Source: Fasciolopsis buskii
Taxonomy: Eukaryota; Platyhelminthes; Trematoda; Plagiorchiida; Fasciolidae
Assembly (NCBI GenBank): GCA_008360955.1
Contig: LUCM01004817.1
Location: 224,953-288,952, forward strand
Direction of reading: 5' to 3'
Length of the DNA stretch: 64,000 nucleotides
The position numbers and the translations under genes were made by a program. Shown in pieces: positions 3,373-46,395 of the stretch (its first letter is position 1; every line of letters begins with the position of its first letter). The notes below the pieces were generated by a model. The model did not search any database, was not told the DNA's origin, and saw only the letters and a program-made list of their open reading frames with translations.

Positions 3373-3386
3373 TATATATATATATA

Positions 3387-3447
3387 ACCGCGAAACTGGT
3401 CGTGTGCTCCCGGGCTAATTTTGTTTACGCATCCAGATACTACTTCC

Positions 3448-3450
<3 letters not shown>
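3387..3450 (+). ncRNA. 3' half of a hammerhead-ribozyme repeat
   Basis: The segment reads ACCGCGAAACTGGTCGTGTG then CTCC. In hammerhead terms it holds the 3' strand of stem II (CCGC), the invariant GAAA, the short helix III (AC-TG-GT), the GTC cleavage triplet and the 3' strand of stem I (GTGTGC). The 5' core CTGANGA and the stem I 5' strand are missing, replaced by a TA run at 3374-3386. The downstream flank (TAATTTTGTTTACGCATCCAG, ending in a TA run) matches the flank of the full ribozyme at 35651-35693, which proves common origin. Cannot self-cleave as it stands. Confidence 0.75.

Positions 3451-3484
<34 letters not shown>
3451..3484 (+). repeat. (AT)n microsatellite at the 3' end of the ribozyme repeat
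   Basis: Perfect AT dinucleotides, 34 bases. The homologous repeat at 35.6 kb also turns into a short ATATATAT run at this point, so the microsatellite probably grew from the element's own end. Confidence 0.95.
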
Positions 3485-16447: not shown

Positions 16448-16552
16448 AGTAGAAGCATTTCGCATACGGATGGCTGAACAAAATTTCCGCTGATGCACAG
16501 GACCGGCTTCGCGATTACTATATCTCCTCGGATATTATCATCCATACACGGT
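16448..16552 (-). repeat. Decayed hammerhead-ribozyme repeat
   Basis: On the minus strand it reads CGCGAAGCCGGTCCTGTGC, then GGAAATTTTGTTCAGCCATC, then CATTTCGCATACGG in reverse. This aligns with the ribozyme repeat at 23.6 and 35.3 kb: GAAA is mutated to GAAG, the GTC cleavage triplet is kept, and the flank AAATTTT...CATCC is preserved. The CTGANGA core is not recognisable. An old, dead copy. Confidence 0.5.
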
Positions 16553-21654: not shown

Positions 21655-21679
21655 NNNNNNNNNNNNNNNNNNNNNNNNN
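21655..21679. other. Assembly gap, 25 N
   Basis: Exactly 25 N between CCCCCTCCAGTG and a C run. The sister copy at 53250-53280 is contiguous here (ACTCCCCCCCCCATTCG), so little or nothing is missing. Confidence 0.98.
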
Positions 21680-21947: not shown

Positions 21948-22020
21948 GCGGTGTCCAAGGGGATACGGTCGTGTTATTTGGACGTGAGGATCGCGGGTTC
22001 GAATCCTCCCACCGTCAATC
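21948..22020 (+). repeat. tRNA-like segment (pseudogene or SINE head)
   Basis: A perfect B-box GGTTCGAATCC sits at about 22000. The 5' CGGTG can pair with the 3' CACCG at about 22012. The T-stem and anticodon stem do not pair cleanly, so a working tRNA is unlikely. An identical copy is at 53538-53610. Confidence 0.5.
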
Positions 22021-22067
22021 AGCTTCCCCACTTGGCAGCCCTTTGTTGGCCGCCTCCCCATTCCTGA

Positions 22068-23587: not shown

Positions 23588-23604
23588 GATGAGCAAAATT
23601 TCCC

Positions 23605-23645
23605 CGGACGCACACGACCACTTTCGCGGCTTTAGTCCACCGGTA
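23605..23645 (-). ncRNA. Core-mutated hammerhead-like repeat (copy in L1)
   Basis: The minus strand reads CCGCGAAAGTGGTCGTGTGC, keeping GAAA, GTC and GTGTGC. The CTGANGA core is not present. The same site in L2 (35347-35385) shows GTGACAA at the core position. Confidence 0.5.
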
Positions 23646-23918
23646 CTGGCTCTTGTTCAACATTCTTATAGCTCGTACACGCCGAATTGGTATGTCTCAA
23701 GCGAGAATCGAATTGTGCGTTCAGGATGTGCGATGGGAGCGTCCTTGTGACAGAGCGGAACAGAAGAAGCACAACTGTGACTATTTGATAACATGTTTGT
23801 CATTGGCTGAGTCAAGTCGCTTCCGGAAACGATGGCACGGTCGGAATAGTACCGCACGCTAAGATAATAGGAAACAGTAGGTAGGCATTGAAATGAGTGA
23901 ATATAAATTTACTCGGGA

Positions 23919-23961
23919 GCACGACACGCGTTTCGCGGTCACTGTCGCTCGTCAGGTATCT
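23919..23961 (-). ncRNA. Hammerhead ribozyme, indel-damaged copy in L1
   Basis: On the minus strand CTGACGA, the stem II segment GCGACAGTGACCGC and GAAA are intact. Helix III and stem I are disturbed by indels (GAAACGCGTGTCGTGCTCCC here, GAAACCGGTCGTGTGCTCC in L2). Since L1 and L2 are probably the same locus, the L2 version at 35651-35693, which folds, is likely the true sequence. Confidence 0.65.
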
Positions 23962-23975
23962 TACCCGGTATTCTT

Positions 23976-26900
23976 CTGTCAAATCCATCCGGCTTATTAC
24001 TAGCTACGTCGCTTCTTAGTGTTCTCACTAGAGCTCATTGATGTTAGCAGCAATGAATGCATGACAAGGTTCACTTAAGAATCGCATGCCGATTGATCGG
24101 AGAACTGGGCTCAAGAACCGGACCAAATTTCGAAGTACAATACGACCCTGATGATCCTGATTTCCAGACTCCCCATCTTCATAAGCACGCTCTCCCATCC
24201 GGTAAACCACCCGGCAGTTGCAACCAGCCATCCGGCCGCACAAAGCCGTCAGTTCACAGAGTTTCCTCCTGCTACTCAGTCATCATTCCAAGCTACATCA
24301 AGTCCTCCGTCAGTCGATCAAATTCACTCAATGAAACCACTCATTAAATCATATCTATGCTTGCGGTAATTAACTCATGTCATCTCATACCCAAACATTA
24401 GCCAATTAGCCTATCTATTCGAGAAAGTTTCTTCATAGATTAAACAATCGCTTGTGCTAATCAGATCAGAACAATTCCTCGTTAGTAAAAACCACTGATG
24501 CTAGTTGCAACATACATGCCAAACAGGCAATGCAGTCACCGATCAAAAATTATTTAAGCGCGAAAACAGTCGTTCAGTGTTGTTCACGCAGAAAAGATCT
24601 TCGCGAGTCCCTGTTAGTAAACCGCGATCGTCGCGGAAGTCGTCATGTCAGTCAAGCATTGGTTATTTCACTGGTCCATTTACTGCGTGATTTTCCGTTT
24701 CGGTAACAGTCGCCTGGTTCTTCGTCCTTTAATGCTTACGTTCTATCTAGCAAGCTTTGTGTAACTGATATTGTCTGTCGCGCGCAGATGTGTGTGTGTA
24801 TGCGTGTCCATATCTTTTATCATTCCGGTGCCACGCTGATGCCAGTTGTATTTGGTCAAATGACGAAACAGTTGTTCCCTCGTTGCCACCAGTGCCCACG
24901 TCATTGGTTTAGAATATCTGTTGTATAAGCAGTGACAAATAATATATATTATGCGTGCCTGCGTACTCGGTCGTGTGGTTTAACAACGGCGGTGGCAGTT
25001 CTCCGGGGCATGTTTGAGCGTTGATCGTCGTCTCAGGTCACCGTTACCGTCACTCATCTACCACCAACCCCTCCTCCCAAGCCGAAGAACAGCAATTGAA
25101 CCGAAGAGCACAACACCAAGAACAATGCAAACAGACATCAACATTGGCGTCAGGTGATAATCGGAAGACAGCAAACTCGTCTCCATCAAAGAACTCAGGA
25201 AAATATTGTGGAATACCGTCCAAGAAAAAAGTCCTATGTTGAAACAAGATGGCAAATTTTCCTCGATTTTTATCAGTTACTGATAAATAATCAATGTAAT
25301 CTAAATCACAATAAATCCCTTATCTACAGATTAAAGGTACCTTCCATAGACAACGAATGGGATACAGGAGTGCAGTGTGTCGTAAGCCTCTTTCCCCTAA
25401 CATACTAGAAATTGTATATAACACCATAATCATTCTTTATAATCTGAATACTAATTAAATGAAGATAAGTGAACATTAAATTGGTACGAATCGTTTTACT
25501 TAGATCAATTATTATTCTACATGGGATTGTAATGCTAGCTATAAAAAGGAGTTTCTACTCAAGCACGGGGATAGCAGGACAGTAGAGTTGCCGATAACAA
25601 CATTTACCTGACGTACGGGCAATGAAACCACACATGACCTGTAGTGTGCTGTGTCGCGCGAAACCTACGTCCGATTGATGTTGTTGTATAGATCACACGT
25701 GCTGACGAAAAAACCCATAATTCTTTCTGAATGTAAGCTTGCAATAAACGCGTATGAAAAACCTGTGATTATCACCGGTGCAACATTTTACATTTGCGCC
25801 ACCGATCCCGGCTCGCTCTAACGATTCAGATGAGCTCAGGTGCTAAATCATACCCAGTGTTTAACATAGAAATAGGCGAATTCACAATTTTTATCGAGAT
25901 CAGCCCCGCTAGATCTGCTTGAACTCTGTGCATTTATGCTTAATTTAGTACAGCTCCTATGGAACTCCATGTACCCTACGCAAGTTTCCACGTACCAACG
26001 ATCAGTAACTCCATCTAATCGTACCCTAAAGTGGTCGTTGAGTCAACAGGCCTGGCACTGACTTTGAAGAGTGGGGCAGCGCTCAAAGTGAATCAATCAA
26101 TTCCTTATCATCGATTAGTGTGCTCAAAGATGTTTTCCAATAGTAGAAACTAGAGATCAACTCAGTTTACAAGGTGCAATGGAGCACTGTGTCTAAGTAG
26201 TACGATATTAGATAATTACGCTTTTTCTTGAGCGAAACAGTGAAATTAGGGGAAGAGAGGCTGGGCAATAGTAAAAAGCCTTCGGGGAACAGCACGGAGC
26301 ATGAATCGTAACCATCGTTGAATGGCCTAATGAGAATGAAAAAAGATGCATCTATTCCGGCACTCGCAACTCAGTGTACGGAATTCGGTATTCATCACGT
26401 AACGAACGATATGAATTAACCAATGATCCTACTCGAGAGCTGGCCCCGAATTGACAACCGCGAATGATGTCTAAATAAGCAAACACACAACAAAAGGAAA
26501 CAAGTTTGAAATTGTCATTTACAAACTCACGGACTTTATATACAAGGTTGGAAATACTTCCGATGGCGGAATTGCATTTCGTCCAGTCGCCTTCGCGGAA
26601 TGTTTGACTTTCACGATCGCTTGTCGTTACAACTCCATTGGCCTCCTTGTCTACGCAGCCGGCTTGAAGCCTGTTACTGGACCTGTACACGGACTTGCAC
26701 GTAAAACTCACCACACTACCCTCGGTGAGAGAATTGGCTTTGCATCAACAAAGGGGTACAGTGAAATGACTCCCGTTGAAGTTACACGCGCTGAACTGCG
26801 TAAACCAAATGTAAAAACGAGAAACTCTTTTATCCACAATAGTGTTAAATTGGATAGAAACGGTATATTGGAAACGCCAGAAATGAATCGTTGTTCAAGT

Positions 26901-27490
26901 CGGTGCCCTGAACCGGAGTGCCTAAGCGTAATTGTGACAACAATTCACCCACCGATAATCTTCGACTGCCAGAATAATTGTTGTGAATTTTGTCAATACC
27001 AGAAATTTTAATTTGAGTATCATTTCGAAAACATTTTTTAATCAGGAACACTTTATGTTGCCTCGAATCCTCCGCGTGCCTGTTCATGACTACTTGCATT
27101 AAATTGGAAACAATAGAGAACTGTATGTAATTTTGGCCCATTCTAAATTGAGGAGTCCCTGTCAAGACGCGAGCCTTACCAATCCGGAAGTAGAAGTTAG
27201 TAGCATCGCTTGAATTCACAAAGTGGAAAAAATGGTCCAAACAGGTGATTCACAGTCTTAACAAAAAACATGCAACAATTGAAGTAATACTGTTGTGTTT
27301 CGTTTGAAAACAAAATAATCAACATATTAGCACCTGATGGGCTCAAACGGCAAGGACCTGAAGGCAACGGAGTAAAATCTGTGCGTTAGAAAATTTGTGA
27401 ATTTTCGTAGGCAATTTTAGGGAATTGATATGGAAATGCAAGTGCTTGGAATTTTCATTTGATTTTGTTTCGCTTCCCTATAATTTACAG
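23976..27490. other. No supported gene within L1
   Basis: Frames at 26352-26714 and 26845-27240 (minus) and 26604-27011 (plus) are open here but broken by indels in L2. None has a recognisable family. A GT-rich tract at 24788-24805 corresponds to a longer GT run in L2. Confidence 0.35.
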
Positions 27491-27622
27491 TGGTTAGCAC
27501 AGCAATACGACGAAAAACAATTGGCGAATTATACAGAATTCTTCCTAATATTATCGAGAGTGTGTAAACCCACCTCGGGGTGCTTTCAACTTATCGATGT
27601 TGAATCAACAGATGTACATTAA
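27491..27622 (+). CDS. Candidate terminal exon inside L1
   Basis: A very good acceptor, TTTCGCTTCCCTATAATTTACAG| (part of a longer pyrimidine tract), ends at 27490. It is followed by 43 open codons and a TAA. The peptide starts WLAQQYDEKQLANYTEFFL, contains RVCKPTSGCFQLIDV and ends STDVH. The acceptor is preserved in L2 (at about 39070), but the frame is broken there by several indels and a small divergent patch. The exact protein sequence is therefore uncertain. No family is recognised and no upstream exon was identified. Confidence 0.3.
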   Translation, partial: WLAQQYDEKQLANYTEFFLILSRVCKPTSGCFQLIDVESTDVH

Positions 27623-28159
27623 GTGATTTCTGTGTAAACTGCAATTTTCTTAATGAACAATGTTGGAATGCCACTTTCCTTCTTCCTCTACCCAGCCACA
27701 ACTACAGATCGTTGGTCGTAATTCCGTTTTCTTCTTACCTCACTTACAATGTTCTGAAATACTCAGGTGTGCTGCCAACGGTTTTTGTTTATTGCACAAA
27801 TCTCGCTTTGCTGACTGGTCCATTCCTGGACTGTTCATTGTCCTAACTAAACGAGTTTACTGTTGAATGTGCACGGGTTTTAATCATTGTTTATTGCGGT
27901 ACGTCGCACCCTACAACCCGAATCGCAGTCCCAAAAGGACTAACTCTTTCCAAGACTATCTCCGATGTTATTTGGTATTAGATTCATATATTGAACTTGT
28001 ATTGTCGTTTTATTAGTTTTCTACGTAACAGTCCAGTTTTTTGTGCACTTCCAAGTTTGCAAAGTTTTTCCCCTCCACTCGCCTCAGCGATCTTGTTCCC
28101 GATTTGCCCCCCTTTATTCAAGAAGTTACAGAACACATATTCTTCTGGAAGGGGACCGC

Positions 28160-28330
28160 CGGGGACGGCTGCGGGAGCCGGCGTGGAGTTGGGGGCTGGC
28201 GGGGGGGTGCGGAGATGTTTGCTGTTGGTGGTCGGGGCTGTTTGGGGGTGCTGGGGGGTGGTGGAGTCGGGTGGGGCGTTGGTGTTGTGTGAGGTGTTCG
28301 GGGTGGGGTTCTGGAGGGGCTGTGGGGGGG
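28160..28330 (+). repeat. G/T-rich insertion present only in L1
   Basis: About 170 nt almost devoid of A and poor in C, with many runs of three to eight G. It is inserted between GGGGACCGC and CTAATAGAGGCCT, which are directly joined in L2 at about 39734. It could form G-quadruplexes on the plus strand. It could also be low-quality read sequence or a haplotype difference. The proline-rich minus-strand frame across it is a by-product of composition. Confidence 0.7.
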
Positions 28331-28364
28331 GGCTAATAGAGGCCTAATCCCGGTGGAAAGTTGA

Positions 28365-28446
28365 CAGGGTGGCGGATTCGAACTCACATACCTTCATAGG
28401 TCTAAGAGAGCCACGGCCCGCTAGTTGTTTGGCCACTCAGCCGGAG
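28365..28446 (-). repeat. tRNA-derived SINE head (L1 copy)
   Basis: On the minus strand GGCTGAGTGGCCAA at 28442-28429 fits the A-box of Leu/Ser-type tRNAs, and GTTCGAATCC at 28383-28374 fits a B-box. The spacing between them leaves room for the long variable arm of those tRNAs. The L2 copy is at 39776-39840. Arms are imperfect, so it is SINE or pseudogene, not a tRNA. Confidence 0.6.
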
Positions 28447-28452
28447 TGACAT

Positions 28453-31269
28453 ACTTGCGTAGACATCCCGTGCTTACATTTCACTGCATGCGTGATCCGC
28501 ATATACAAAAATGGATAACGATATTGTTGCACACTAACACACCTAAATATTTTGCGTGTCGTCACAACAGATCCTGCTCAGTCTGCCTCTAGTCGTCTGT
28601 TCCTTAATTATGAGAGCGAAATATTGCCCTTTAGATCATTGAGGGGCAGGGGTTAAACTCTATAAAACTGTCGAAGAATTGCAGCAGTAGCATGGTAATG
28701 GTATATATAAAACCATTTTATGTTATAGTCGTATTGTAGTATAGATGACAAATCTTAGACACGATCAATAAGCTCACTGAATCTACGGGAAAAACTAAAC
28801 AGACGAGCAATGAAGATTGGAAAGTAAAAAAGTAAACAATTACAGAGTTAACATACGTTCTTTATCCCCCATGCCACGTAAGTCGGCTGCCTATCTGAGA
28901 CTTCATGTTTCTTTTTTATTCTTTCCTAATCTTTTACATTTATCTTAATAAAAACAGCGAAAGAACCGTTGTTTTCAGGAATGCCGAACAGAGCAAACTT
29001 CCAAGTGGAAAGCCGAACGCAGGTGCAGCACCGACCCGTTTGGAAATGCTGTGCATGCTTCTTATTGATCCCATTGTCCAAACGAAGTTAGAAGGTTGGT
29101 TTGGGGTGACCTATCACCCGAGCATTTTGACGCCAGTGGCTAACTTCACAAGGCAGCGGACAGTTCTGAGTTTTCACGTAATTCTACTGGGACTGGTAAC
29201 TGATTGCTCAGCCCATAACAGTCTCTTTGAACGAAACTAAATTATCCTGGATCCCTCGGTGGCAACTCTTGCCACCGCAGCTGGCGAAAGATAACAGCCC
29301 ATATGTTTTCTTACCCGCCGTGGTTTGTTCGGAATCAGATTTAGCCAACTTCCTATGCTGATTAGCAAATGCCAAGTAACAGAGGACGGCGTCGGTTTAT
29401 TCCGGCCTTCGTTCCTCGTACTTTTTGCGAAACAGTCGCCTCGGAGAAATCGGAGTTTGCGGACTTTCCATAAAGACTGTTTGAGACCGCCGTTCATTTC
29501 CGAGCACCTCAAAGGAGACATACTAGGTGAATGGCCGGTCGCTCAGTCTGGGATCTACACCGCCCCCCGAATCCGCTGACGACATTCTTGAGAGAAGACG
29601 GATAGTGGTAATAATGGTAAAGGCTAATAAGCAATCCAATAATTTGCCTTGCGGTTTTGTTCGTTCATAATCCGCTTAGTCTCCTCGGCTAACGATAAAT
29701 GAGTTCCACCATAGAACGATGATCTATAAGGGTAGCAGTAGGTGATCCCGCAAAACCTTCTACGTCGTGCAAAATTTGACATAAGTACACCTTGAGAATC
29801 ATTCCGAAGGAATCCTAGTGCGAAAAGCGTGCGCGTTTTCGCATCGTTTACACCCGATTTGGTGCAGAGGACAAATCTGAGGAATTGCACAGATGCCGAT
29901 TCCTAACAAGCTAAAGGAACCCTTTGTACCGTGTTTCTTTTCGCATTCCTTATCATGAAATGAGTAACCTTACACAGCTAAACCTAATGCCCGGCAAATC
30001 GATACAATAACAATTTTTTCCTCTTCTATCCAATGCACTAAGTGGAGGAAAGAAATCTAGGCTTAAATAATACGTGTACAGGTGCGCAAAGAATTCGAAC
30101 GCGAAATATTCACCTGTGCCAATGGGATTGACGCTGAATTACAAACGCAAACATGGGAGAGGTTGTCTCATATGGTCACGTGCGAGCACGCGAAGTGAGT
30201 TGGAAGGCTATACGACGGGTAGATAACCTTTCATTTGGATGGCATATGAACTGCGGGATGTAACAGCTTGGCCACAGTTCCGAGGTCCCTCTCGTCGATG
30301 TCGCAAGAAGCCGCGCCGCCTTTCCGTCACAATATATATTGGTAACAACATTTTGGTGGTTACGATGCGAAGATGGGGGCTTGTAGATCGATCGCACCGA
30401 TGATCATCTCCACTCGACACTCCGTCGCACTCATGTTCCCTATCGGAGCTAACGGAGACCTTAGCTACGTATCATTAGTGAGCGCTGGAATGCATTTCAC
30501 GATTCATTGCGGAAGCCTGTGGCAATTTGGGAAAGCATCCAGACAATTTCGTTTCTCCAAATACAAGAAAGGTAGAGTATGCCTCAAACAACTGAAAAAC
30601 CCGCCAATAAGCTCCTCGCATCCTGAAGAATGATGTTCTGCTTTTGTTGCCCGAAACGTAGCACAAAAAACAACTAAACAAAGCAACAGTAAGAGAACAA
30701 CTCAACGCTAATAATGCTACTGTGCACTGAGGACAAGGTCTAAGGGAGGGTAAAAGAGTCGTGGTATCATCAATCACTCACCGTCTTGTTGCGTAATTAA
30801 ATCACTCAGCTGCATCGGTTCCAGTACTGAAGTCGGGTCCCGGTAGCAAGTACATCTGAAGAGGAAAGTTTGGAAGGAAAAACATTGCGATGTGGATACA
30901 TGTTGTTAGTCAAGTTGTGGTTTACGTGCGCCCTGCCATTATACAACGCCAATTGGAAACGTGGCAATTTACCAGTAAAAAGGGTCATAACATTCGGTGA
31001 ATGCCACAAAGAGATTGTTAAAGTAAGTGTTTTCACGTGCTTTTTCAGTTGCTTGGATGATTTAACCATTCTATTGCTTGCTTGTGAGTCGGAAGCAGTT
31101 TCAACGCGGCTGCGCACAATGCGTCACATTTCAAAATAGATCGTGCCGTCGGCCTGCGTCATTAAACGACACTGCAAGTCGGTTACTAGCTCTGATGTGA
31201 CAGCAGAGAAAAGTTAGTAATTATGTAATCTACTTTGCTTCTTTATATGTAGTGTGCCAATTTGAATTC
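28453..31269. other. No supported gene within L1
   Basis: Short frames only, not preserved in L2. A plus-strand acceptor-like TTGTTTTCAG|GAATGCC at about 28979 is kept in L2, but no frame agrees between copies. Confidence 0.35.
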
Positions 31270-31304
31270 GAATGAAGCGGCGAATGAAGCGGCGAAATGA
31301 AGCC
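31270..31304 (+). repeat. 12-bp minisatellite, about three units
   Basis: GAATGAAGCGGC in tandem twice plus a third altered unit. The same array is in L2 at about 42523-42556, so it is real and not read noise. Confidence 0.8.
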
Positions 31305-34300
31305 ACGTTTGGATTTGTTGGCACAGAACGAATCAACGGCAGATGAAATCGCGCCATTTCAACAGTCAACGTCAGTAATTTAACTTCTTACTTAAAGCTG
31401 GTGAACAGAAAATACTGATGTCCAATTCGCCTAATAGAACTAATGCGTAGGAAGAAATATGAACGACATCATTCCATATTTATAATTTAAGACAACCTAG
31501 ATGAAGAGACTAGCTTACATTAGCTGAGATTGTGTGAAAGATTGCCCAAACCACAACGTCTCATTTCGCGACACTTCTCTCCACTATACACATTCGGTAA
31601 TGGGAAAACCGAGCGTTTCATAAAGAACAGTTTGCCTTATTTGCGTGGCATTAATGCAGACAAAAGTACAAAATGTTTTTTCTTAGTTATAAGAAACATG
31701 GCAGCAAGCGAGTATTTAATGAACGGTCTGGTATTTTTCGTTTAATCATTGCTCTGTATGGAGAGTGGAAGAGTTCGCTGTATGCAGTCCGACCGCTAGC
31801 AACAAATGGATGCCACGGTCGAGATTTCGACGATGGATGTTAATCGACTCAATTGAAAAATTCTGTTTGGGTTGCCAGCCGACGAAAAGTCATTAGACTA
31901 GATGATACGTGCTTCACTATTTGGAACGAATAAACATGATCGATAAAAGAAAGAACCCAAAAATCATTCAGTAAATGGTTTTTACAGCTATCGTCCGGTG
32001 AGCATGTGCGGTTCAATAAATGTATGGAAAGGATTAGGAATCGCCGCTCAAGATCGACTACTTTTCGCATTCGGAAAATTTTAAACTTTTCTATTAGTAA
32101 GAACAATCTATTTGTGATATTACATCTGTCATCGAAATATCGCCGTAACCAAGCCCGTTAAATAATGCTACGCTGAGAGTCGGGCATTTCGAACTCAGCT
32201 GCTCAGATGCTGTCAATCCATCAGCTCGGCAGACTGGAGTCGGTGCCATACGGCTTCGGTGAAATAAATACTGTCAATATTTATGAATTGGGTAACTGGA
32301 GAACGCAAAAATTTATTACAACAACCGTGCACCATTAATAATGTCATAGCGGCTGTGCTTCTGCACGTACAGGTGAGAATGGCAACCCAACAGTTCTTCC
32401 TTAATCACTTAAATTCCCGCACCAACGTCACTGGCGCATAGAAGTTTGGTGGTAATTTAAAGACAGGAAAAAACAAATCGGAAATATAATACAATTTTTA
32501 TAATATGCCCGCATTGTGTCATTTGTTTCCGAAAACAGTTTGCACGATTGGGAGCGGATTGCCTACGAGTTTTTCACTTTTTTGAAACGTGTTTACCTTA
32601 ATTGCTGTCAGCATACTGTGTCTACCGACCATTCTTATGTAAATATGCAGGCCCATTCAACATACCATGGCATTTTTTCTGCATCTGGATTGTTAGGCCT
32701 ACAGTTTCTCAAAATGTAACAATATAAAGAGAACAAAGTCAATAGTTGGGCCTGCGTAAGATGGCGACCTCACGCCAGTAAAAGTTCTTTCCTAGATAGT
32801 TCAATAATGTTATCAGTGTCTTTTGACCCGAATCAACCCGAAACTGAAGAAGCGGCAGTTTCTCATCCGATATATCCTCTCTAACCGCAATGCAGACTGG
32901 CATGTGTTGGGGGAAAAAAAAGGGAAAATAGATGAACGAATAACAAATAAACTAACGCTATCACCGTCAAAAGACATGATCTGTATCGACTGTCTGTAAC
33001 GTGAAGTGAATGTGCCAGATATGACTCGTATGCAACAATGGATCTTCGCCCATTGCGTCAATTATAATTAACGCTCTTTGTGTTGTTCGGTCCGAGCTTA
33101 TCGAACTTCCAATCTCGACTGGATGGCCTGTGGAATCACGTCATTGCCGCTTTGAATCCGTGAACGTATCTACTCCAGACATTTGCCTGGTTCCAAAGTG
33201 ATTCACAATGGTCGCACATGAGGAGGGCTTCCAAAAGAACACTATCTGGAGGTCATAGTTGCTATCTCTGACACTCCCAGCTGTGGCCCAACTAGCAAGC
33301 TTTTTAACATTTTCGAAATGTTCTTGCTTTTCATCTGTCATTCAAGTTTGCTCACTGATCGAAATCATAGGAATGCGCTTAAGCCCATCGATTGATACTC
33401 AAGGCGATAACATATCTGGCCGTTTCAGGTCGAATGGGGAAAAAATGTCATGCATTCCGATAACTGTTTGTGCATGAAAACAGACTGGAGCTGATGTTAT
33501 CTACGGACGCCGTCGCTCTGGCGTGTTTCCGTCCACTGATTGCAATTGCTCAGAGCCCGTTGACCGTGCTTGGAGCAATTATTCTCATCTTGCTATTTTA
33601 TTCATGACTTCGGAACATTTTCATTAACTGAAACTCCAATTCAACGGTGAAATTTTCTTACCATTCTAGAATGCAAGTGGATTAACAAAGAGGTTGCTAC
33701 TGAGGGCCAACTTTAAAGGCACAAATCACCCCCTTTTGGTACATCTCGTGGTTTATTATCGGTGACTCTAACCTGCGTCCAGACAGGTTCTGCTGTGTGA
33801 TTAGTTTAGCACATACTGAGTTCCACAAAAGTAATATCACATATCAAATCGCGGAATGTGCTATCTTCGAAATGCATAAAAAGTTTATGTTGAGCATCTT
33901 CTTGCAGTAGATGACTGGACTTAAAAAAAGGCCCGGTCATCAACCTTACATTCCTTCGGAAGAACGAGGTATCAATAAATGGATAAATAATAATAAGCAT
34001 CTACTACTACAATAGTATTGACGGAGTGTCAGTAGTAGTTGTTTTTATATTATTGTGCCGGCAGTCGATAAATTTAAATGTAGGTCATATTAATACTTGT
34101 TAATTGCGGCTCGTGTCAGTGGTGAAAATTCGCTATTCCCTCCGTAATTTATGCTCTGCTGTCCTACATGATATCGACTACTACGGCTGGAACAGTGTTT
34201 TTGATTTTGGTCTGTCGTCATTGCGTTTTGCATTCCGGGTTACCCTTGCTTTTTACGTTGTGCCGTTGTGCCTCTCTAATCGCTGAGGATTTATCTTTTA

Positions 34301-34624
34301 TTCTGATGTCGAACGCCTGTCACCATATGATGTTGCTATTATCCTTATCCTTCACTTGATGTAGCACGCTGGTACTGTCCGCCTAGCTTCACAGCGATCG
34401 ACCCCTCCTTCATATGTATACTCTCGCGGGTAGCCTCGAGTATCGGTACGAAGAAGACTTTGGATACGTGACGCTCACACAGTCTTGATAAACTTGGCAC
34501 ATTTCAGTAGGTATGTTGAGATTGATATTGTTGTTTCAGATGAAATAATAATTCACGCCATGTGATATGATCGCTCTAGGTGGATCGAATAAAGAATAGC
34601 ATGGTATTCAGCAGTACCCAGTCT
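31305..34624. other. No supported gene within L1
   Basis: AT-rich sequence. An imperfect inverted repeat of TAGTAG/CTACTA words at 34002-34042 is seen in both L copies. No coding signal. Confidence 0.35.
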
Positions 34625-34960
34625 GTTTGATCTTTTAGGAATCATTCTAGCATTTGCAATACCCACCGCGCGCGAACGGGGCCGCGATCATTTTGTGTGA
34701 AGTTGAAGCAAAATCCGTTCACAGCCTGTCGGTAAGCCGAATGGCAATTGCGTTCGACTCAAGACATCGTTCTGTGGCTCGCGGGTTTCGGCCGTCCCAC
34801 GTTCGTCGTGAAGCGATTCTCATTACTCTCCGCTGCTCGTTCCAGTTCTTAACAAGGATCACACACCGTGTTACTCGCTGTCCATGGTTCCATTCATTGC
34901 TCAGTGGTGTGATCTATATCACGATGGTAAGTTGTACATAAACATGTGAATTATTGTCAT
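34625..34960. repeat. Head-to-head inverted SINE pair (L1 copy)
   Basis: A minus-strand SINE arm lies at about 34625-34690 (TTAGGAATCATTC, CACCGCGCGCGAAC). It is followed by the leader GTGAAGTTGAAGCAAAATCC and a plus-strand SINE from about 34729 (GGTAAGCCGAATGGCAATTG, CGCGGGTTTCGGCCGTCCC). The L2 copy at 45655-45985 is clearer. Confidence 0.65.
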
Positions 34961-35304
34961 TCTAATAACATTTTCAATCTCTCTTCTACTACTCAAAATG
35001 AGATTACCTTATAGACACTTTGGTATATTCGTCATTCGGCCACCCTTATTTCAGACAGTTGTTTTATCAGGATCTAGTTTTATTGATCTCTCACGTGGTT
35101 ATCGATAGACCGTCGGCGTAGTATACTTTGACTTTTTAGCTAGCACGGCCCTGTAACTTTTTTTCTAGGTCTGATCATCACGTCAAGACAAAAGTTTGTT
35201 ATCTGCTGGACCACGTGATGGATACTTTCCTATCATTCGTCCGGGTCCGCGTTGTCACTTTGGACGCGGTGGATATCTGCACTGTTGATTGACTCCTAAC
35301 AAGG

Positions 35305-35329
35305 NNNNNNNNNNNNNNNNNNNNNNNNN
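35305..35329. other. Assembly gap, 25 N, between L1 and L2
   Basis: Exactly 25 N separate CCTAACAAGG (inside a SINE) from GAGCAAAATTTCC. The left flank continues without a break at 46315 and the right flank joins unique sequence at 23590, so the gap size is a placeholder. Confidence 0.98.
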
Positions 35330-35346
35330 GAGCAAAATTTCCCCGG

Positions 35347-35385
35347 ACGCACACGACCACTTTCGCGGTTATTGTCACCCGGTAC
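35347..35385 (-). ncRNA. Core-mutated hammerhead-like repeat
   Basis: The minus strand reads GTGACAA, TAACCGC, GAAA, GTG, GTC, GTGTGC. Compared with a working core (CTGANGA), C3 is G and G8 is A, and the stem II segment is 7 nt instead of 14, so activity is not expected. Its cleavage triplet lies 302 nt downstream (minus sense) of that of the intact ribozyme at 35651-35693. Confidence 0.6.
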
Positions 35386-35650
35386 TCTCTTGTTCAAACA
35401 TTCTTATACTCGTACACTCCGAATTGGTATGTCTCACGAGAATCGAATTTGTGGCGTCAGGATTGTGCATGGGAGATCTTGGTGGAAGAGCGGACAGAAG
35501 AAGCACAACTGTGATTAGTTGATAACTGTTTGTCAGTTGGGCTGAGTCAACGTTCGGAACGATGGCAGTCGGCTTCGGAATATACGCACGTTAAGATATA
35601 TATGGAAACAGTAGGTAGCATCTGGATGAGTGAATAAAATTTACTCTGGA

Positions 35651-35693
35651 GCACACGACCGGTTTCGCGGTCACTGTCGCTCGTCAGGTATGC
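35651..35693 (-). ncRNA. Type I hammerhead ribozyme, complete core
   Basis: On the minus strand the 43 nt parse exactly as stem I 5' strand GCATAC, core CTGACGA, stem II segment GCGACAGTGACCGC (GCG pairs with CGC), GAAA, helix III/cleavage segment CCGGTC, and stem I 3' strand GTGTGC. Stem I forms six pairs including one U-G, and a seventh A-U pair is available just outside (AGCATAC/GTGTGCT). All invariant residues (C3 U4 G5 A6, G8 A9, G12 A13 A14, C17) are present. Cleavage is predicted after GTC, between 35657 and 35656. Helix III is only about two pairs (AC/GT), as in the minimal ribozymes of Penelope-like elements and retrozymes, which tend to work as dimers. The TA-rich 3' flank is shared with the copy at 3387. 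Confidence 0.8.
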
Positions 35694-36635
35694 TTACCCG
35701 GTATTCTTCTGTCAAACCATCCCTATACTAGTACGCTCCTTTCTTAGGTTCTCACTAGAATCTCATTTGAATGGTTAGGAGCATGAATGGATGACAAGTT
35801 CACTTAAGAATCGCATGCCGATTTGTCGGAGGACTGGGCTCAAGAACCGGACCAAATTCGAAAACAATAACGACCCTGATATCTTTGATTTCAGACTCCC
35901 CATTCATGAAGCAGTCTCCCATCCGGTAAACCACCCGGCCAGTTGGCCATCCAGCCATCCGGCCACCAAAGTCCGTCAGTCACAGAGTTCCTCTGCTACT
36001 CAGTCATTCATTCAAGCACCATCAATCCCTCCGTCAGTCGATCACAATCACTCAATGAACCACTCATTTATCATATCTTATGCTTCGGTAATTAACTGTC
36101 ATGTCATCTCATCACCCAAACTATTAGCCAATTAGCTATCTATTCGAACAGTTCTTCATAGATTAAACAATCGGCTTTGTGCTAAATCAGATCAAACAAT
36201 TCCTCGTTAGTAAAAACCACTGATGCTAGTTGCACATACAGCCAAACAGGCAATCAGTCAGCCGATCAAACAATTAGTTAACCGAACAGTCGTTCAGTTG
36301 CACGCAGAAAAATCTTCGCAGTCTTAGTAACCCGATCGGTCCGGAAGTCGGTCATTCAGTCAAGCATTGGTTATTTCACTGTCCATTTACTGCGTGATTT
36401 TCCGTTTCGGTAACATCCCGTGTCTTCGTCCTTTAATGGCTTACGTTCTATTCTAGCCAATCTTTGTGTAACTGATATTGTCTGTCTGCGCGCGTGTGTG
36501 TGTGTATGCGTGTCCATATCTGTTTATCAGTCCGGTTGCACCTGTAGTGCCAGTTATTTGGGTCAAATGACGAAACAGTTGTCCCTGTTGCACAGTGCCC
36601 ACGTCATTGGTTTAGATATCTGTGTAAGCATACAA

Positions 36636-36680
36636 ATATATATATATATATATGTGCATGCGTATGTGTGTGTGTGTGTT
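36636..36680 (+). repeat. Compound (AT)n / (GT)n microsatellite in L2
   Basis: AAATATATATATATATATGT followed by a GT run. In L1 (24940-24985) the same place reads AATATATATTATGCGTGCC, and the GT run is mostly missing. This shows how strongly the two copies differ at simple repeats. Confidence 0.85.
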
Positions 36681-39600
36681 TAACAACGGCGGTGGGCAGG
36701 TGTCTCATCGGGGCAGTGGGTTGACTGATCGGTCTCAGTCACCGTTACCCACTCATCTACCACCAACCCCTCCTCCCAAAGCCGAATACAGTCAATGAAC
36801 CGAAGAGCACAACAACAAGAACAACGACGACATCAACATTGGCGTCATGTGAAATTCTGGAAGACAGCAAACTCGTCTCCATCAAAGAACTAGGAAAATA
36901 TTGTGGAAACCGTCAAGAAAAAGTCCTATTTTGAAACAGATGGCAAATTTTCCTCGATTTTTTATCAGTTACTGATAAAATACAATGTAATTATAACAAT
37001 AAATTCCTTATCACAATAAAGGTACCTTCCATAGACAACGAATGGGATACAGGAGTGCAGTGTGTCGTAAGCCTCTTTCCCCTAACATACTAGAAATTGT
37101 ATATAACACCATAATCATTCTTTATAATCTGAATACTAATTAAATGAAGATAAGTGAACATTAAATTGGTACGAATCGTTTTACTTAGATCAATTATTAT
37201 TCACATGACATTGTAATGGCTAGCATAACAAAGGAGTTTACAAGCACGGGGATAGCAGGACAGTAGAGTGCCCGATACACATACCTGACGAACGGCAATA
37301 ACCACACAACCTGTAGTGTGCTTTCGCGGAAACTACGTCCGATTATGTTGTGTATAACACACTGCTGACGAAAAAACCCATATTCTTTCTGAAGGTAAGC
37401 CTTGCATAAACCGATGAAAAACTTGTGATGAATCACCGTGCAAATTTTACATTTGCGCACCATCCAGGCACGCTGCTAACGATTCAGATGAGATTCTAGT
37501 GCTAAATCATACCCCATTTTAACATAAATATGGCGAAATTCAACAAATTTTATCGAGATAAGCCCTAGGATCTGCTTAAACTCTGTGCATTTATGCTTAT
37601 TTAGTATCAGTCCTATGGACTATGTACCTACGCAAGTTTCACGTACCAAACGATCAGTAACTCCATCTAATCGACCTAAAGTGGTCGTTTGATCACACCA
37701 CTGGCACTGACTTTGAAGTGGGGCAGGCTCCAAATGAATCAATCAGATTCCTTATCATCGATAGTGTGCTCAAAGATGTTTTCCAATGAGTAGAAACTAG
37801 AGATCAACTCAGTTTACAAGGTGCAATGGAGCACGTGTCAAGTAGTACCATATAGATAAATAACGCTTTTCTTTGAAGCGAAACAGTGAAATTAGGGGGA
37901 AGAGAGGCTGGGCATAGTAAAAAGCCTTCGGGGAAAGCAGGAGCATGATGCGTACATCGTTTGAATGGCCTAATGAGGATGAAAACAAGATGCACTATTC
38001 GGACTCGCAATCAGTGTACGGAATTCGGTCAGTCACGGTAACGAACGGATATGAATTACCAATAGCCACTGAACTGGCCCCGATTCGAGCAACGCGAATG
38101 ATGTCAATAAGAAAAACACAACAGAATGGAAACAAGTTTGAATTGTATTTACAACTCACGGATTTATATACAAGGTTGGAAGTACTCCGATTGGCGGAAT
38201 TCATTTCGTCCAGTCGCCTTCGCGGAATGTTTGGATTTCACGATCGCTTGTCGTTACGACTCTCATTGGCTCCTTGTCTACGCAGACCGGCGTGAAGCTG
38301 TACTGGACTGTATCACGGGACTTGCACGTAAACTCACCACACATACCCTCGGTTGAGAAATTTGGCTTGCATCACATAAGGGGTACAGTGAATGACTCCC
38401 GGTTGAAGTACACGCGCTGAAGCGTAAACCCAAATGAAAAACGAGAAATCTTATCCACAATAGTGTTAAATTGGATATGAACTGTATATTGGATACGCAG
38501 AAATGAGATCGTTGTTCAAGTCGGTGCCTGAACCGGAATGCCTAGGTAATGGACAAGCAATTGCACCAGACGATAATCTGCGACGTGCAGAAATGTGTTT
38601 GTGAATTTGGTCAATACCAGAAATTATATTGAGTAATCATTTGAAAACAGTTTTTTAATCAGACACTTATGTTTGCCCGAATCCCGCTTACTCACTCATT
38701 AAATTGGAACAATAGAGTGAACTGTATGTAATTTGGCCCATTCTAATTTGAAGAGTCTGTCAAGACGCCGAGCCTTACCATCCGGAAGTAGAAGTTAGTA
38801 GCATCTTGAATTACAAAGTGGAAAAAATGGTCCAAACAGTGATTCACAGTCTTACAAAAAACATGCACAAAGTATACATGTGTGTGTGTTCGTTCTGAAA
38901 CAAAATAATCAACATATTCAGCACCTGATGGGTTCAAACGCAAGGACTTGAAGGCAACGGAGTAAATCTGTTGCTTAGAAAATTGTGAATTTCAGGCAAT
39001 TTTAGGAATTATATGGAATGCAAGTGCTGGATTTTCCATTTGATTTTTGTTTCGCTTCCTATTAATTACAGTGGTAGCACACGCAATACGACGAAAAAAC
39101 AATTGGCGAACAGATATGCTAATATTATCGCAGAGTGTGTAAACCACCTCGGGGGTGCTTTTCAACCTTATCGATGTTGAATCACGATGTACATTAGTGA
39201 TTTCTGTGTAAACTGGCAATTTTCTTTAATGAACAATGTTGGGAATGCACTTTTTCCTTCTTCCCTATCCCAGCACACTACAGACGTTGTTGTCGGTAAT
39301 TCCGTTTCTCTACCTCCTGTACAATGTTTGAATTACTCAGGTGTGCTGCCCACGGTTTTGTTTTATTGCACCAAACTCGCTTGCTGACTGGTCCATTCTG
39401 GACTTTCAGTTAGTCCTAACTAAATCGAGTTATGTGAATGGTGCACGGGGTTTTATAGATCATTGTTTACTTGCGGTACGTCGCACCTACAACCCGAATG
39501 CAGTCCCAAAAGGACTAACTCTTTCCAACTATCTCCGATTGTATTTGTGTATTAGATTCATTATATTGAACTTCATTGTCGTTTTATTAAGTTTCTAACG

Positions 39601-39775
39601 TAACAGTCCAGTTTTGTGCACTTCCAAGTTTGCAAAAGTTTTTCCTCTCCACTCTGCCCAGCGATCTTGTTCCCGATGTTGCTCCCTTTATTAATGAAGT
39701 TACAGAACACATAATTTTCTGGAAGGGGACCGCGGCTAATAGAGGCCTACCCGGTGGAAAGTTGACAGGGGGTTG
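36681..39775. other. No supported gene within L2
   Basis: Copy of 24986-28364. The acceptor of the candidate exon at 27491 is present at about 39070, but the frame after it is broken. Confidence 0.4.
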
Positions 39776-39840
39776 GCGGATTCGAACTCACATCCTTCAT
39801 GTCTAAGAGCCACGGCCCTAGTTGTTTGGCCACCACCGGA
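39776..39840 (-). repeat. tRNA-derived SINE head (L2 copy)
   Basis: B-box GTTCGAATCC on the minus strand at 39787-39778 and a damaged A-box near 39835. Counterpart of 28365-28446. Confidence 0.55.
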
Positions 39841-42800
39841 GTGACATTGCGTAGACATCCCATGCTTACATTTCACTGCATGGGACCTAACAAAAATGGA
39901 TGACGATATTTGTGCACACTAAACACCTAATATTTTTGGTGTCGGTCACAAAAGATCCTGCTCAGTCTCCTTCTAGTCTTCTGTTTCCTTTAATTATGAA
40001 GCGAAAATGCACTTTAGATTCTATTGAGGGCAGGGGTTAAACTCTAAACTGTCGAAAGAATTGCAGCAGTAGCATTGTAATGGTAATATAAACCATTTTA
40101 ATGTTTATGCGTATATATTTATATATATAACAAATCTTAGTACAGATCATAAGCCACTGGAATCACGGTGAAGAACTAAAACAGCGAGCAATGAAGATGG
40201 AAGAAAAAGAAACAAGTTACAGAGTTAAACATACGGTCCTTTTATTCCCCATCACGTAATCGGCTGCCTATCGAGATTCATGGTTTCTTTTTTATTCTTT
40301 CCTATCTTTTATTTATCTTATTATTAAGACAGCAAAGAACGTTGTTTTCAGGAATGCCAACAGAGAACTTCCAAGTGGGAAAGCCGAACGCAGGTGCAGC
40401 ACTCGAACCCGTTTGGAATGCTGTGATGCTTCATATTATCCAGTTGTCCAAACCGAAGTAGAAGGTTGGTTTGGGGGACCCTATACCGAGCATTTAGCAA
40501 GTGGTCTAACTCACAAGGCAGCGGACAGTCTGAGTTTCACGTAATTCACTGGGGACTGGTAACTGATTGCTCAGCCCATAAGTTCTTTGAACGAAACTAA
40601 ATATCCTGGATCCTCGGTGCAACTCTTTGCCACCGATGCTGGCGAAGAAACAGCCATATGTTTCTTACGCCGCCTGTGGTTGGTTCGGAATCAGGATTTA
40701 GCCAACTTCCTATGCTGATTACCAAATGCCAGTCAACCAGATGGACGGCGTCGGTTATTCCCCTTCGTCCTCGTACTTTTTGCGGAAACATCGCCTCGAG
40801 AAATCAGTTTGCTGGACTTTCTCAGTAAAGACTGTTTGAGACGCCGTTCATTTCCGAGCACCTCAAAAGACATACTAGGTGAATGGCCGGTTCGCAGTCT
40901 GGGATTCTCACCCCCGAATCCCGCTGAGACATTCTGAGAAAAGACGGATAGTGGTAATAATAGGAAAGGCTAATAATAATCCAATAATTGACCTTTGCGG
41001 TTTGTTCTTCCAAACCGCTAGTCTCCTCGGATAACCGATAAATGATGTATCCACCATAGGAAGCGATGACTATAAGGGTAGCAGTAGGTGATCCCGCAAA
41101 AACCTACGTCGTGCAAATTTGACATAAGACGAACTTTTGAGAATCAGTTCCGAAGGAATCCTAGTGCGAAAGCTGCGTTTTCGCATTCGTTTACACCGAT
41201 TTGGTGCAGAGGACAAATCTGAGTGAATTTGCACAGATGCCGATTCCTAACAAGATAAATGGAACCCTTGTACCGTGTTTCTTTCGCATTCCTTATAACG
41301 AAATGAGTACCTACACAGCTTAAAACTAATTGCCCGGCAAATCGATACATAACTAATTTTTTTCCTTCTTCTATTCAATGCATAATGAGGAAGGATCAGG
41401 GCTTAAATAAGACGTGACAGGTGGCGCAAAGAATCGAACGCGAAATATTCACGTGCCAATGGGATGACCTGATTACAACGCAAACATGGGAGAGGGTGTC
41501 TCATATGGCACGTGCGAGCACGAATGACGTTGGAAACGGCTATACGACGGGTAGATAACCTTATTTGGATGGCATAAACTGCGGATGTAACAGCTTGGCA
41601 CAGTTCCGAGGCCCTCTCTCGATGTGAAGAAGCCGCGCCGACTTCCGTCACAATATATATAACAACATTTTGGTGTTACAGATTGCGAAGATGGGGGCTT
41701 AGATCGATCGCACCGGATATCATCTCCACTCGACACTCCGTCACTCATGTTCCTACGGAGCAACGGAGACCTTAGCACGATCAGTAGTGAGCGCGATGAA
41801 GTTCACGATTATGCGGAAGCTGTGCAATTTGGAAACATCCCAGACAATTTCGTTCTCCAATACAGAAAGGTAGAGTATGCCTAAACAATGAAAAACCCAG
41901 ATAAGCTACTCGCATCCTGACAGAAGTGATGTTCGTTTTGCAGAAACGAGCATCAAAAAACAACTGAAACAAGCAACAGTAGAGACAACCAACCTGAATA
42001 ATGCTACTGTGCACTGATGACAGGTCTAAGGAGGGTAAAAGTCTGGATCATCAATCACTCACCGTGCTTGTTGCGAAATATCACTCAGTGCATCGGGTTC
42101 CAGTACTGAAGTCGGTCCGGTTAGCAAGTACGACTGAAGAGGAAAGTTTGAAGGAAAAACATTGCATGGTGGATACATGTTGTAGCAAGTTGTGGTTTTA
42201 GTGCCGCCTGCATTTATACCAACCAGCCAATTGGAAACGTGGCAATCCAGTAAAAAAGGGTCAAATTCGGTGAATGCACAAATGAGTTGTAAGTAAGTGT
42301 TTCACGTGATTTTCAGTTGCTGATATCTAACCACTTCTGATTGCTTGCTTTGGAGTCGGAGCAGTTTCAACGCGTGCTGCTGCAGCATGCGTCACATTTC
42401 ACAGATCGTGCGTCGGCTGCGTCATTAACGACACTGCGAAATCGGTACTACTGATTGACAAGCAGAGAAAACGGTTAGTATTATTAATCTACTTTGCTTT
42501 CTTTATGTAGTGTGCATTGATCGAATGAAGCGGCGAATGAAGCGGCGAATGGAGGCCACGTTTTGGATTGTTGGGCACAGAACGAATCAACGGGAGATTT
42601 GAATCCGCGCCATTCACAGTCCAACGTCAGTAATTTAACTTCTTACTTAAAGCTGTGAACAGAAAATACTGATGTCAATTCGACCCTAATAGAACTAATG
42701 CGTAGGAAGAAATATGAACACCAATCATCACTATTTATAATTTAGACAACCTAGATAAAGAGACTAGCTTACATTAGCTGAGATTGTGTGAAACGATTGC

Positions 42801-45654
42801 ACAAACACAACGTCTCAGTTCGCGGAACTATCTCTCCACTATAACATCGGTATGGGAAAACAGCGTTTCATAAAGAACAGTTTGACTTATTTGCGGTGGC
42901 ATTAACTGCAGACTAAAAGTATCAAAATGTTTTTTCTTGTTATAAGAAACAGAAAGGATATTTTAATGAACGGTGATTTTTCCGTTTTAATCATTGCTCT
43001 GGTATTGGAGAGTGAGAGTTCGGTATGCCAGTCCGACGCTAGGCGAACAGATGGATGCCACGCTCGAGATTTCCGACTGATGGATGTTAATCGACTCATT
43101 GGAAAATTCTGTTTTGGTTGCCAAGCCACGAAAGTCCATTAAGATAGATGATACGTGCTTAACTAATTTGGACGGATAATCAGTGATCGATAAAAGAAAG
43201 ACCCAAAAATCATTCAGTATGGTTTTACAGCTATGTCGGTTGAGCATGTGCGGTTCATATGTATGGGAATGATTAGAATCCCGCCAAGATCGACTACTTT
43301 TCGCATTCGGAACAATTTTAAACTTTTCTATTAGTAATAACATCTATTTGTGATATTCATCTGTTCATGAAATTATCGGCGGTAACCAAGCCGTAAATAA
43401 TGCAACGCCTGATAGTGGGCATTTCGAACTCAGCTGCTACAGATGTCTGTCCACCACTCAGTCGGCAGACTTGATTCGGTGCCAGTAGGCTTCGTGAAAT
43501 AAAATACTGTAATATATTTATGAATTGGTAATGGAGAACGCAAAAATTTATTACAACAACCGTCACCATTAATAATGTCATAGCGCTGTGCTCTGCACGC
43601 AGGTGAGAATGGCAACTCCAACAGTTCTTCCTTATCAACTTAAATTACCCGACCACGTCACTGGCCATATGAAGTTTGGTGGTAATTTAAAGAACAGGAA
43701 AAAAACAAATCGGAAATAATACAATTTTATATATTCCCCATTTGTGTCATTTGTTCGAAAACAGTTTGCACGATTGGGAGCGATTGCCTACGATTTTTTT
43801 TCACTTTTTGAAACGTGTTACTTTAATTGCCGTCAGCATACTGTGTCTACCGACCATGTTTATGTAAATATGCAGGCCTCATTCCACACATATCCATGCA
43901 TTTTTCTGCATCTGGATCTGTTAGGCCTACATTTTCTCAAAATGAACAATATAAGAGAACAAAGTCAATAGTTTGGGCTGTGTGAAGATGGCGACCTCAC
44001 GCCAGTAAAGTATCTGTTCTAGATAGTTCATAATTTATAACAGTGTCTTCTTGACCCGAATCAACCAAACTGAAGAACGGCATTTATAATCCGATATAGT
44101 CCTCTCAACCGCAAATGCAGGACTGGCATGTTGGAAGGGAAAATATGACACGAATAACAAATAAATAACGCTATACCGTCAAAAGACGATGATTGTACGA
44201 CTGTCTGTAACGTGGAAGTGAATGTGCCAGATCATACCGTATGCAACACATGATCTTTCAGCCCATTGCCAATTAAAAAACGCTCTTTTGTGTTGTATCG
44301 GTCCGAGCTTATCGACCCCAATGACTCGATGCCTGTGAACACGCATTCCGCTTGATCCGTGAACGATCTACTTTCCAGACATTTGCTCTGGCTCTTCCAA
44401 AGGTGGATTCACAATGGTGCACATCGAGGAGGGTTCCAAAAGAACACTATCTGGAGGTCATATTGCTATCGTCTGACATCCCAGCTGTGGCCAACTAGCA
44501 AGTTTTACATTTCGAAATGTCTCTTTCATCTTGTCATTCAAGTTTGCTCACTGATTCGAATCATAGGATGCGCCTTAAGCCCAGTCGATTGATACTCAAG
44601 TCGAAATATACTGGCCGGTTCAGGTCGAATGGGGAAAAAATGTCATGCATCCGATGAACTGTTTGTGCATGAAAAAGACTGGAGGCTGATTGGTTATCTA
44701 AGGACGCCGTCGCTTTGGCGTGTTTCGTCCAGCTGATTGCAATGCCAGAGCCCGTGGACGTGCTTGGGAGCAATTATTCTCATCTTGCTATTTATTCATG
44801 ACTCGGAAATTTTCATTACTGAAAACTCCAACTTCACGTGAAATTTTCTTACCATTCTAGATGCAGTGGATTAACAAAGAGGTTGATACTGAGGGCCAAC
44901 TAAAGGCACAAACGACCCCCTTTTTGGTACTCTCGTGGTTTATTTATGTGACTTATACTGCGTCCAGCAGTTCTGCTGTTGATTAGTTAGCATACTGTCA
45001 CAAAAGTAATATTTCACATATGCAATCGCGGATGTGCTATATGCGAAATGATGAAAGTTTTATGTTGAGCATCTCTTGCAGTAGATGACTGGATTAAAAA
45101 AGCCCGGTCATACCTTACATTCTTCGAAGAACTAGGACAATAATGGATAAATAATAATAGCACTACTACTACTAATAGTAGTACGAGTGTCAGTAGTAGT
45201 GTTAGTATAGTCGGCGCGATAAATTTAATGTTAGTATAAATACTTGTAATGCGCAGGCAGGGTGAAAATTCCATTCCTCCTTAATTTATGCTCTGCTTAA
45301 CTGATATCGGACTACTACGGCTGAACATTGTTTTGGTCGTCGTTCATTTTGCATCCGGTACACTTGCTTTTTAGTTTTGTTGCCTGTGCCTTCTAATTGA
45401 GATTACTTTTCTGAGTCGAACGCCTTCACCACATGATGTTGCACCTATCCGTCACTGATTTACACGCTTACTGTCCGCTAGCTCACAGCGATCGACCCCT
45501 ACTCATAGATCACTTCTCGGCGGGTAGCCTGAGTACGACGAAGAAGACTTTGGATATGACCCACACAGCTTGATTACTTGGCACATTTCAGTAGTAGGAG
45601 ATTGAATGTTTTCATGAAATAATAATTCACCATGTGATATGATCGCTCAGTTGA
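39841..45654. other. No supported gene within L2
   Basis: Copy of L1 sequence with many indels; no frame can be trusted. The 12-bp minisatellite recurs at about 42523-42556. Confidence 0.4.
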
Positions 45655-45985
45655 CGATAAAGAAAGCATGGAAGCAGTACCCAGCTGTTTGATCCTTGTT
45701 AGGAATCATCAGCAGTGCATATCCACCGCGCCCGAACTGGGACGCGATCATGTGGTGAAGTTGAACAAACCGTTCACAGCCTGTCCGGTAGCGTAATGGC
45801 CAAGGCGTTCGACTCAGAATCGTTCGTCCCGGGTTCGCGTCCCAGTTCGGAAGCGATCCATATGCACTGCTCGTCATTCTTAACAAGGATCAAACACCTG
45901 TACACTGCTTCCATGGTTTCCACATGCTCAGTTGTGTGATCATATCACATGGTGAATTGTACATAAACATGGTGAATTATTTCAT
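45655..45985. repeat. Head-to-head inverted SINE pair (L2 copy)
   Basis: The left arm is minus strand: CCTTGTTAGGAATCATCAGC, AGTGCATATCCACC, GCCCGAACTGGGACGCGATC. The right arm is plus strand: leader GTGGTGAAGTTGAACAAACC, A-box-like GGTAGCGTAATGGCCAAGGC from 45788, B-box GGGTTCGCGTCC at about 45831. Its body continues CAGTTCGG, TTAACAAGGATCAAACACC and CCATGGTTTCC, with tail CACATGGTGAATT. The arms can pair over the B-box and body modules. The left arm lacks a tRNA head. Confidence 0.7.
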
Positions 45986-46239
45986 GAAAACATTCAATCT
46001 CCTACTACTAAAATGAGATTACTTTATAGACATTTGGTATAGTCATTGGCCACCCTTATTCAGGACAGTTTGTTTTATCAGGATCTAGTTTTATTTGATC
46101 TCTCACGTTGGTTGATCATAGACGTTCGGGTAGTATACTTTGACTTTTAGCTGCCACGCCCTGTAAATTTTTTCTGGGTCTGATCATTCACGTAGAAAGT
46201 TTTGTATCTGCTTGGACCACGTGATGGATACTTTCTATC

Positions 46240-46395
46240 ATTCGTCCCGGGTCCGCGTTTCACTTTGGACGCGGTGGATATCTGCACTGTTGATGACTCC
46301 TAACAAGGACGAAACAAATGTATATTTCTTCCACGGTTTCCAAATAATGAGTTAAGTCATGATATCATATGATGAATTATGTCACGATACTTTCT
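46240..46395 (+). repeat. SINE, 5' truncated
   Basis: TTCGTCCCGGGTCCGCGTTT, GGACGCGGTGGATATCTGCA, CTCCTAACAAGGACGAAACA, CTTCCACGGTTTCC, GATATCATATGATGAATT. Same body and tail modules as 17519-17706. The tRNA A-box part is missing. The L1 version of this SINE is cut off by the 25 N gap at 35305. Confidence 0.7.

Follow-up and report, generated by a model that had tools for sequence, protein, structure and literature searches.

Metazoan non-LTR retrozymes are described, in the available part of the principal account, as tandem non-coding repeats of 150-450 bp that carry type I hammerhead ribozymes, have a GC content below 50% and occur in many copies (PMC7229834). In the same paper Cervera and de la Pena put forward the idea that Penelope-like elements (PLEs) move these animal repeats, naming them a strong candidate, and a review states that the repeats hold no conserved motif from which an autonomous partner could be deduced (PMC7761336). 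Purified Anolis PLE cuts and extends both strands of AT-rich targets, starts inside its RNA at a site that is non-homologous to the target and lies, by the positions published, 85-92 nt beyond the cut of the hammerhead (111-118 minus 26), and can dispense with the hammerhead for insertion in vitro (PMC11167929). In Adineta, Penelope copies frequently stand head-to-head, and a preference for simple AT-rich targets is ascribed to the element (PMC3846280).

The window considered here, meaning the whole 64,000-nt stretch of Fasciolopsis buskii DNA that was analysed, contains a repeat that, judging from its sequence, is a metazoan non-LTR retrozyme, a kind already known. What is new is its insertion anatomy, comprising two preferred internal 3' ends, variable 5' ends, (TA)n flanks and head-to-head copies; for animal retrozymes, the titles and opening lines of abstracts consulted among open-access papers report neither (TA)n targets nor internal starts at fixed sites nor a tandem lineage with a mutant core.

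The window hammerhead and its repeat family

The interval 35651..35693, exactly that of the original prediction, which had left the strand unstated, holds a type I hammerhead core that is complete and reads on the minus strand, with the predicted cut between 35657 and 35656. In the sense reading, stem I joins GCAUAC (35693-35688) to GUGUGC (35656-35651) over 6 bp including one U-G, where six to seven positions had been anticipated. It is followed on the minus strand by the CUGACGA box at 35687-35681, stem II with the expected GCG/CGC pairing (35680-35678 with 35669-35667), GAA at 35666-35664, ACCGGU at 35663-35658 and C17 at 35657; for the residue numbers (C17, A15.1, U16.1, G12) we follow what we take to be the usual convention. 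Helix III is very short, as had been proposed, and the two pairs granted to it were generous because the monomer retains a loop of the usual size only if it keeps the single pair A15.1-U16.1, closing CCGG. Since ACCGGU is perfectly palindromic, however, a pair of copies can form 6 bp with each other, at -8.3 kcal/mol in a cofold versus +5.3 for the one-pair hairpin.

A lone 60-nt piece with the window hammerhead has a different structure as its best fold, and over the 701 bases around the motif the Rfam HH9 model scores 19.1 bits (E 0.063) with a cut-off of 52; a scan of the whole window with Rfam returned no hammerhead at E ≤ 1. The sub-threshold score and the alternative fold are what a chance or dead look-alike without function would show, a reading we consider barely credible given that the motif is homologous to a large family with an identical core. 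A 34-place core pattern derived from the family matches the host genome (703 Mb, 6,974 contigs searched) exactly at 1,465 places and its reverse at none, and we therefore regard the window motif as real and as a member of that family. Searched in the window alone, a looser core pattern matched once against 0.09 expected, the match being a second copy at 23923-23955. On sequence grounds the motif by itself is no proof, and it is the family that is decisive.

An initial DNA search of the host genome gave at least 102 matches, many of them in arrays stepping 313-330 bp. The unit is ~317 nt and occurs singly or arrayed, with single loci accounting for 86 of the 90 intact loci among 100 matches listed of 961. 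Fresh units at L016 have a GC content of 46.1%, below 50% as for metazoan non-LTR retrozymes, and an HH9 score of 31.1 bits (E 2.4e-4 in 18.7 kb), which is under the curated 52. The longest stop-free stretch in a tripled unit is 109 aa; the unit contains no long frame and hence does not code for the reverse transcriptase (RT) or GIY-YIG endonuclease of a PLE. The unit length and the number of exact core matches bear out the suggestion that the element is of retrozyme type and that its helix III is very short.

An older class B (L044, L046, L052, L059, L060 and L068), mostly with CUGAAGAGCGG, has a fixed 3' end ~57 nt past the cut, beyond which five of the six copies diverge by eye; its second end motif is similar by eye, and TA flanks are absent. 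Covariation was also considered as support and set aside. Stems I and II gave no signal over 91 distinct cores, and helix III pair 38-41, with three double changes and its observed pairing reached in 2/1,000 shuffles, was discarded because the double changes are too few and come in part from poorly aligned old copies.

Within the window, the copy with the complete hammerhead spans 35330..35791 on the minus strand (1.5 to 2 units), bounded on its 5' side by the loss of similarity to the L016 unit and on its 3' side by an N gap at 35305-35329. Its unit end (35791-35657) is 74% identical to the L016 unit and the next body (35656-35377) 80%. A second hammerhead on the same strand, at about 35330..35382, lacks the CUGANGA box and is 302 nt away from the first, in keeping with the original placement of the motif in a repeat, as is the genome-wide family. 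Sequence comparison places this copy as an old family member, ~80% identical to a fresh unit, and it is possibly inactive nowadays. The claim of an active or recently active element is borne out for the family, as one that was recently active, with 99% alike units in the L009 array and tandem and head-to-head insertions; the window copy itself is old and decayed. A younger 5'-truncated copy at 3384..3472 (plus strand, 90% to the unit) comprises the last part of the hammerhead and unit 1-71 and is flanked by TA tracts on either side. Decayed hammerhead relics of the family were recognised by sequence comparison at 16475..16535 (minus) and 37233..37338 (plus).

Comparison with the family also identifies a sister copy at 23591..23990 (minus), which differs in the part from GAAA to stem I (23904-23959) and has a second hammerhead half at 23590-23639. 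It is situated in a consecutive duplication of 11-12 kb (23591-35304 versus 35330-46308, 84-86% identical) with a 25-N gap between the halves. The two main blocks differ by 624 mismatches and by 834 gap openings, of which 619 are single-base; gaps this numerous point to long reads left uncorrected and to a duplication that is false, probably noisy gap filling or an uncollapsed haplotype. The sister copy would then stem from false duplication in the assembly, as is probable, and not from old divergence. A second pair of stretches, 19821-22071 and 51313-53661, is 85-88% identical with many one-base gaps and lies beside N runs.

Insertion anatomy

Ends were read in two sets of loci and are counted from the predicted cut. 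The first set, 40 regions in contig order from 100 matches listed of 1,465 (some listed matches skipped, array loci fetched earlier excluded), comprises 48 insertions: 17 '+', 13 '-', 15 head-to-head '-+', two '+-' and one '+-+'. Outer 3' ends fall mainly at unit 59-73 (33/61) and at 205-224 (13/61); eight more read 317, at least six of them belonging to old class B copies whose unit similarity stops there. Outer 5' ends (n = 35) show no departure from an even distribution (KS p 0.75). Tracts of (TA)4+ occur no more than 40 nt from the outer 5' end in 10 of the 33 insertions that possess one, and at the same distance from 22/61 outer 3' ends, compared with 9 of 1,140 stretches of far flank used as a control; the 3' figure is inflated because the element has a TA stretch of its own, which leaves the 5' figure unaffected. 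In the flanks inspected, these tracts make target site duplications unreadable.

Both outer ends of the head-to-head '-+' copies are 3' ends. One end of each preferred site is paired in 9 of these 15 insertions and two ends of the same site in none (shuffles p 0.001 and 0.008). The second set, 20 further loci from 961 intact same-context copies (100 listed), gave 21 insertions, with one end at a locus edge dropped. Here 14/23 outer 3' ends are at unit 59-73 and 3/23 at 195-224, (TA)4+ accompanies 10/18 5' ends and 13/23 3' ends, and three '-+' insertions stand against no '+-'. A count of cores alone does not reveal the head-to-head bias, since close opposite-strand pairs in the 100 intact matches listed of 961 consist of three '-+' and two '+-'.

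Core mutants and the template

In 10 of 106 per-locus cores G12 is replaced by C, all of these loci having been picked for long matches, and array loci with such cores are L009, L012, L014, L017, L018 and L028. The host genome holds 184 G12C copies (100 listed, by contig order) and 961 intact same-context copies (100 listed). Defining tandem as same strand and 290-350 bp apart, 17/60 G12C loci are tandem among the matches listed versus 4/90 intact loci (Fisher p 6e-5), and the intact same-context matches (n = 67) of the 1,465-match pattern list give 3/61 loci (p 5e-4 versus G12C). Intact arrays also occur, for example at L011. According to PMC8490949, cleavage is reported to be abolished or slowed when the CUGANGA or GAAA motif is changed, and G12C cores are presumably unable to cut. 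The tandem excess is an association, of which the insertion of uncut multimers as arrays would be the simplest reading; arrays may instead have grown at the DNA level, and a single amplified lineage may be the common source of the G12C loci. All eight G12C loci inspected end at unit 64-75 or 209-224, as intact ones do, suggesting that G12C copies moved as RNA too. This lineage provides a natural mutant series for the role of self-cleavage in such elements.

A self-cleaved linear template would predict copies starting at unit 1. Among 100 listed of 756 copies with an intact unit start, none begins at the cut, and the bases that precede it are those of the hammerhead or at minimum its last few. 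Because no listed copy begins there, the template was apparently not the self-cleaved linear unit, and a circle or an uncut multimer would fit. In the first set, 7/20 single-orientation copies measure 300-320 nt (after dropping two short rows that are artefacts of the linear query), hinting at a single turn around a circle. A pile-up at one unit length was predicted for the second set but did not recur there, where 1/18 copies measure 300-325 nt, and we make no claim for a circle for that reason. Copies longer than 390 nt number 0/20 in the first set and 2/18 in the second, arrays being omitted or under-sampled in both.

Candidate movers and comparison with known systems

The host genome contains a plausible partner. 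Scoring 150 candidates gave 142 GIY-YIG matches at E ≤ 1, and one locus (L077, 434-2941, minus strand) encodes an intact autonomous PLE frame of 835 aa with matches to RT and GIY-YIG domains. In a protein scan RVT_1 scores 44.5 bits, above the Pfam cut-off, and GIY-YIG 17.8 bits (E 0.004), below its cut-off of 22.6. Relatives of this PLE carry PF00078, PF28514 and PF26215, the closest named ones being from Schistosoma, along with Heterobilharzia and Opisthorchis, at 37-44% identity, which makes a digenean fluke the likely host; an ORF of the window, searched to the same end, had no relative. PLE matches no more than 3 kb apart comprise nine '-+', no '+-' and three same-strand pairs, a head-to-head bias like that of the retrozyme insertions, and on the 5' side of the 835-aa frame lies a head-to-head palindrome of 252 nt. 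The 3' end common to two further loci (L081 and L082) lies ~40 nt beyond a GAAACGTT half-hammerhead, in an AT-rich stretch. Beside the PLE no full hammerhead was found, only a hairpin and the GAAACGTT half near the 3' end, which have no Rfam hammerhead match, and sequence matches between PLE and retrozyme are at chance level. The agreement is one of architecture and not of sequence, and for this reason we infer mobilisation by PLEs rather than assert it.

We consider it probable that the repeat is a non-autonomous retrozyme of ~317 nt inserted from preferred internal starts, most likely by a PLE of the same genome. The hammerhead would be the processing ribozyme of this metazoan retrozyme, and its sequence suggests that two-unit transcripts would self-cleave, most likely through two hammerheads that pair with each other and have the palindromic helix III in common. 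The RNA, as a circle or uncut multimer and not as the self-cleaved linear unit, would be copied to new places from internal starts, chiefly 59-73 nt beyond the cut and secondarily at unit 205-224. Insertion would often be into (TA)n tracts and often from both target sides, yielding head-to-head copies, and the observed anatomy points to target-primed reverse transcription. G12C cores, presumably uncut, would more often end up in tandem. The insertion anatomy favours the PLEs that the original prediction had named; counting against them, the main retrozyme start site is itself TA-rich, unlike the non-homology of start and target in the Anolis PLE. A more far-reaching version, possible but tentative, makes retrozymes parasites of PLEs, whose protein would start at two RNA sites and prime both (TA)n strands. 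The ribozyme would limit the number of units, and a lineage that lost G12 would escape cutting, insert multimers and seed satellite arrays. If this is true, a working ribozyme keeps insertions near one unit.

Other movers have to be weighed against a PLE. An RTE- or CR1-type LINE could move the retrozyme by ordinary target-primed reverse transcription, with head-to-head copies arising by L1-like twin priming and (TA)n being the LINE target or tail. LINEs, too, combine a fixed 3' end with scattered 5' ends, the '-+' order likewise results from twin priming in L1, and the window has a frame at about 55359-56056 that we take to be LINE-like, followed by (AT)18 at 56284-56319. However, twin priming would be expected to put the second end anywhere, yet 9/15 head-to-head copies pair both preferred sites, and TA tracts occur on the 5' side as well; we judge a LINE the less likely mover, though still a candidate. 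Still less probable is a satellite DNA spreading by unequal exchange or other DNA-level copying with the hammerhead as a passenger, as might be proposed from the near-identical units of the L009 array and the frequent arraying of G12C copies. Most intact loci listed are single, with common end sites and differing flanks, and the G12C loci read share the end sites in eight of eight cases, both of which speak against it. Even so, part of the array growth probably took place by copying of DNA.

The type I hammerhead, repeat size range, GC content and copy abundance are the same as in metazoan non-LTR retrozymes, whose unit sequence differs from that found here as far as the accessible part of the account allows a judgement; the same source describes a likewise weak helix III under a palindromic tetraloop in axolotl HHR_Amex1 and notes that metazoan retrozyme genomes also hold PLEs, as the host genome does (PMC7229834). 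Nothing on two preferred internal end sites, on (TA)n flanks or on head-to-head copies of metazoan retrozymes appears in the available text of that article, from whose main text the words 'microsatellite' and 'inverted' are absent. The SMalpha or W-elements of Schistosoma mansoni, as described in the portion available of PMC8490949, are also fluke repeats with a type I hammerhead and with broken and intact copies; they are called SINE-like there, and our comparison with them is by description only. PLEs code for RT and a GIY-YIG endonuclease, whereas the present retrozyme is geneless and has a fuller hammerhead. Its insertion ends offer a clue to the enzyme behind the movement of animal retrozymes, and open the idea of PLE involvement to a single in vitro assay. 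PLEs with minimal hammerheads similarly occur in tandem and head-to-head at AT-rich targets primed on both strands (PMC11167929, PMC3846280), and reverse transcription by the Anolis PLE likewise starts shortly past the hammerhead cut (PMC11167929).
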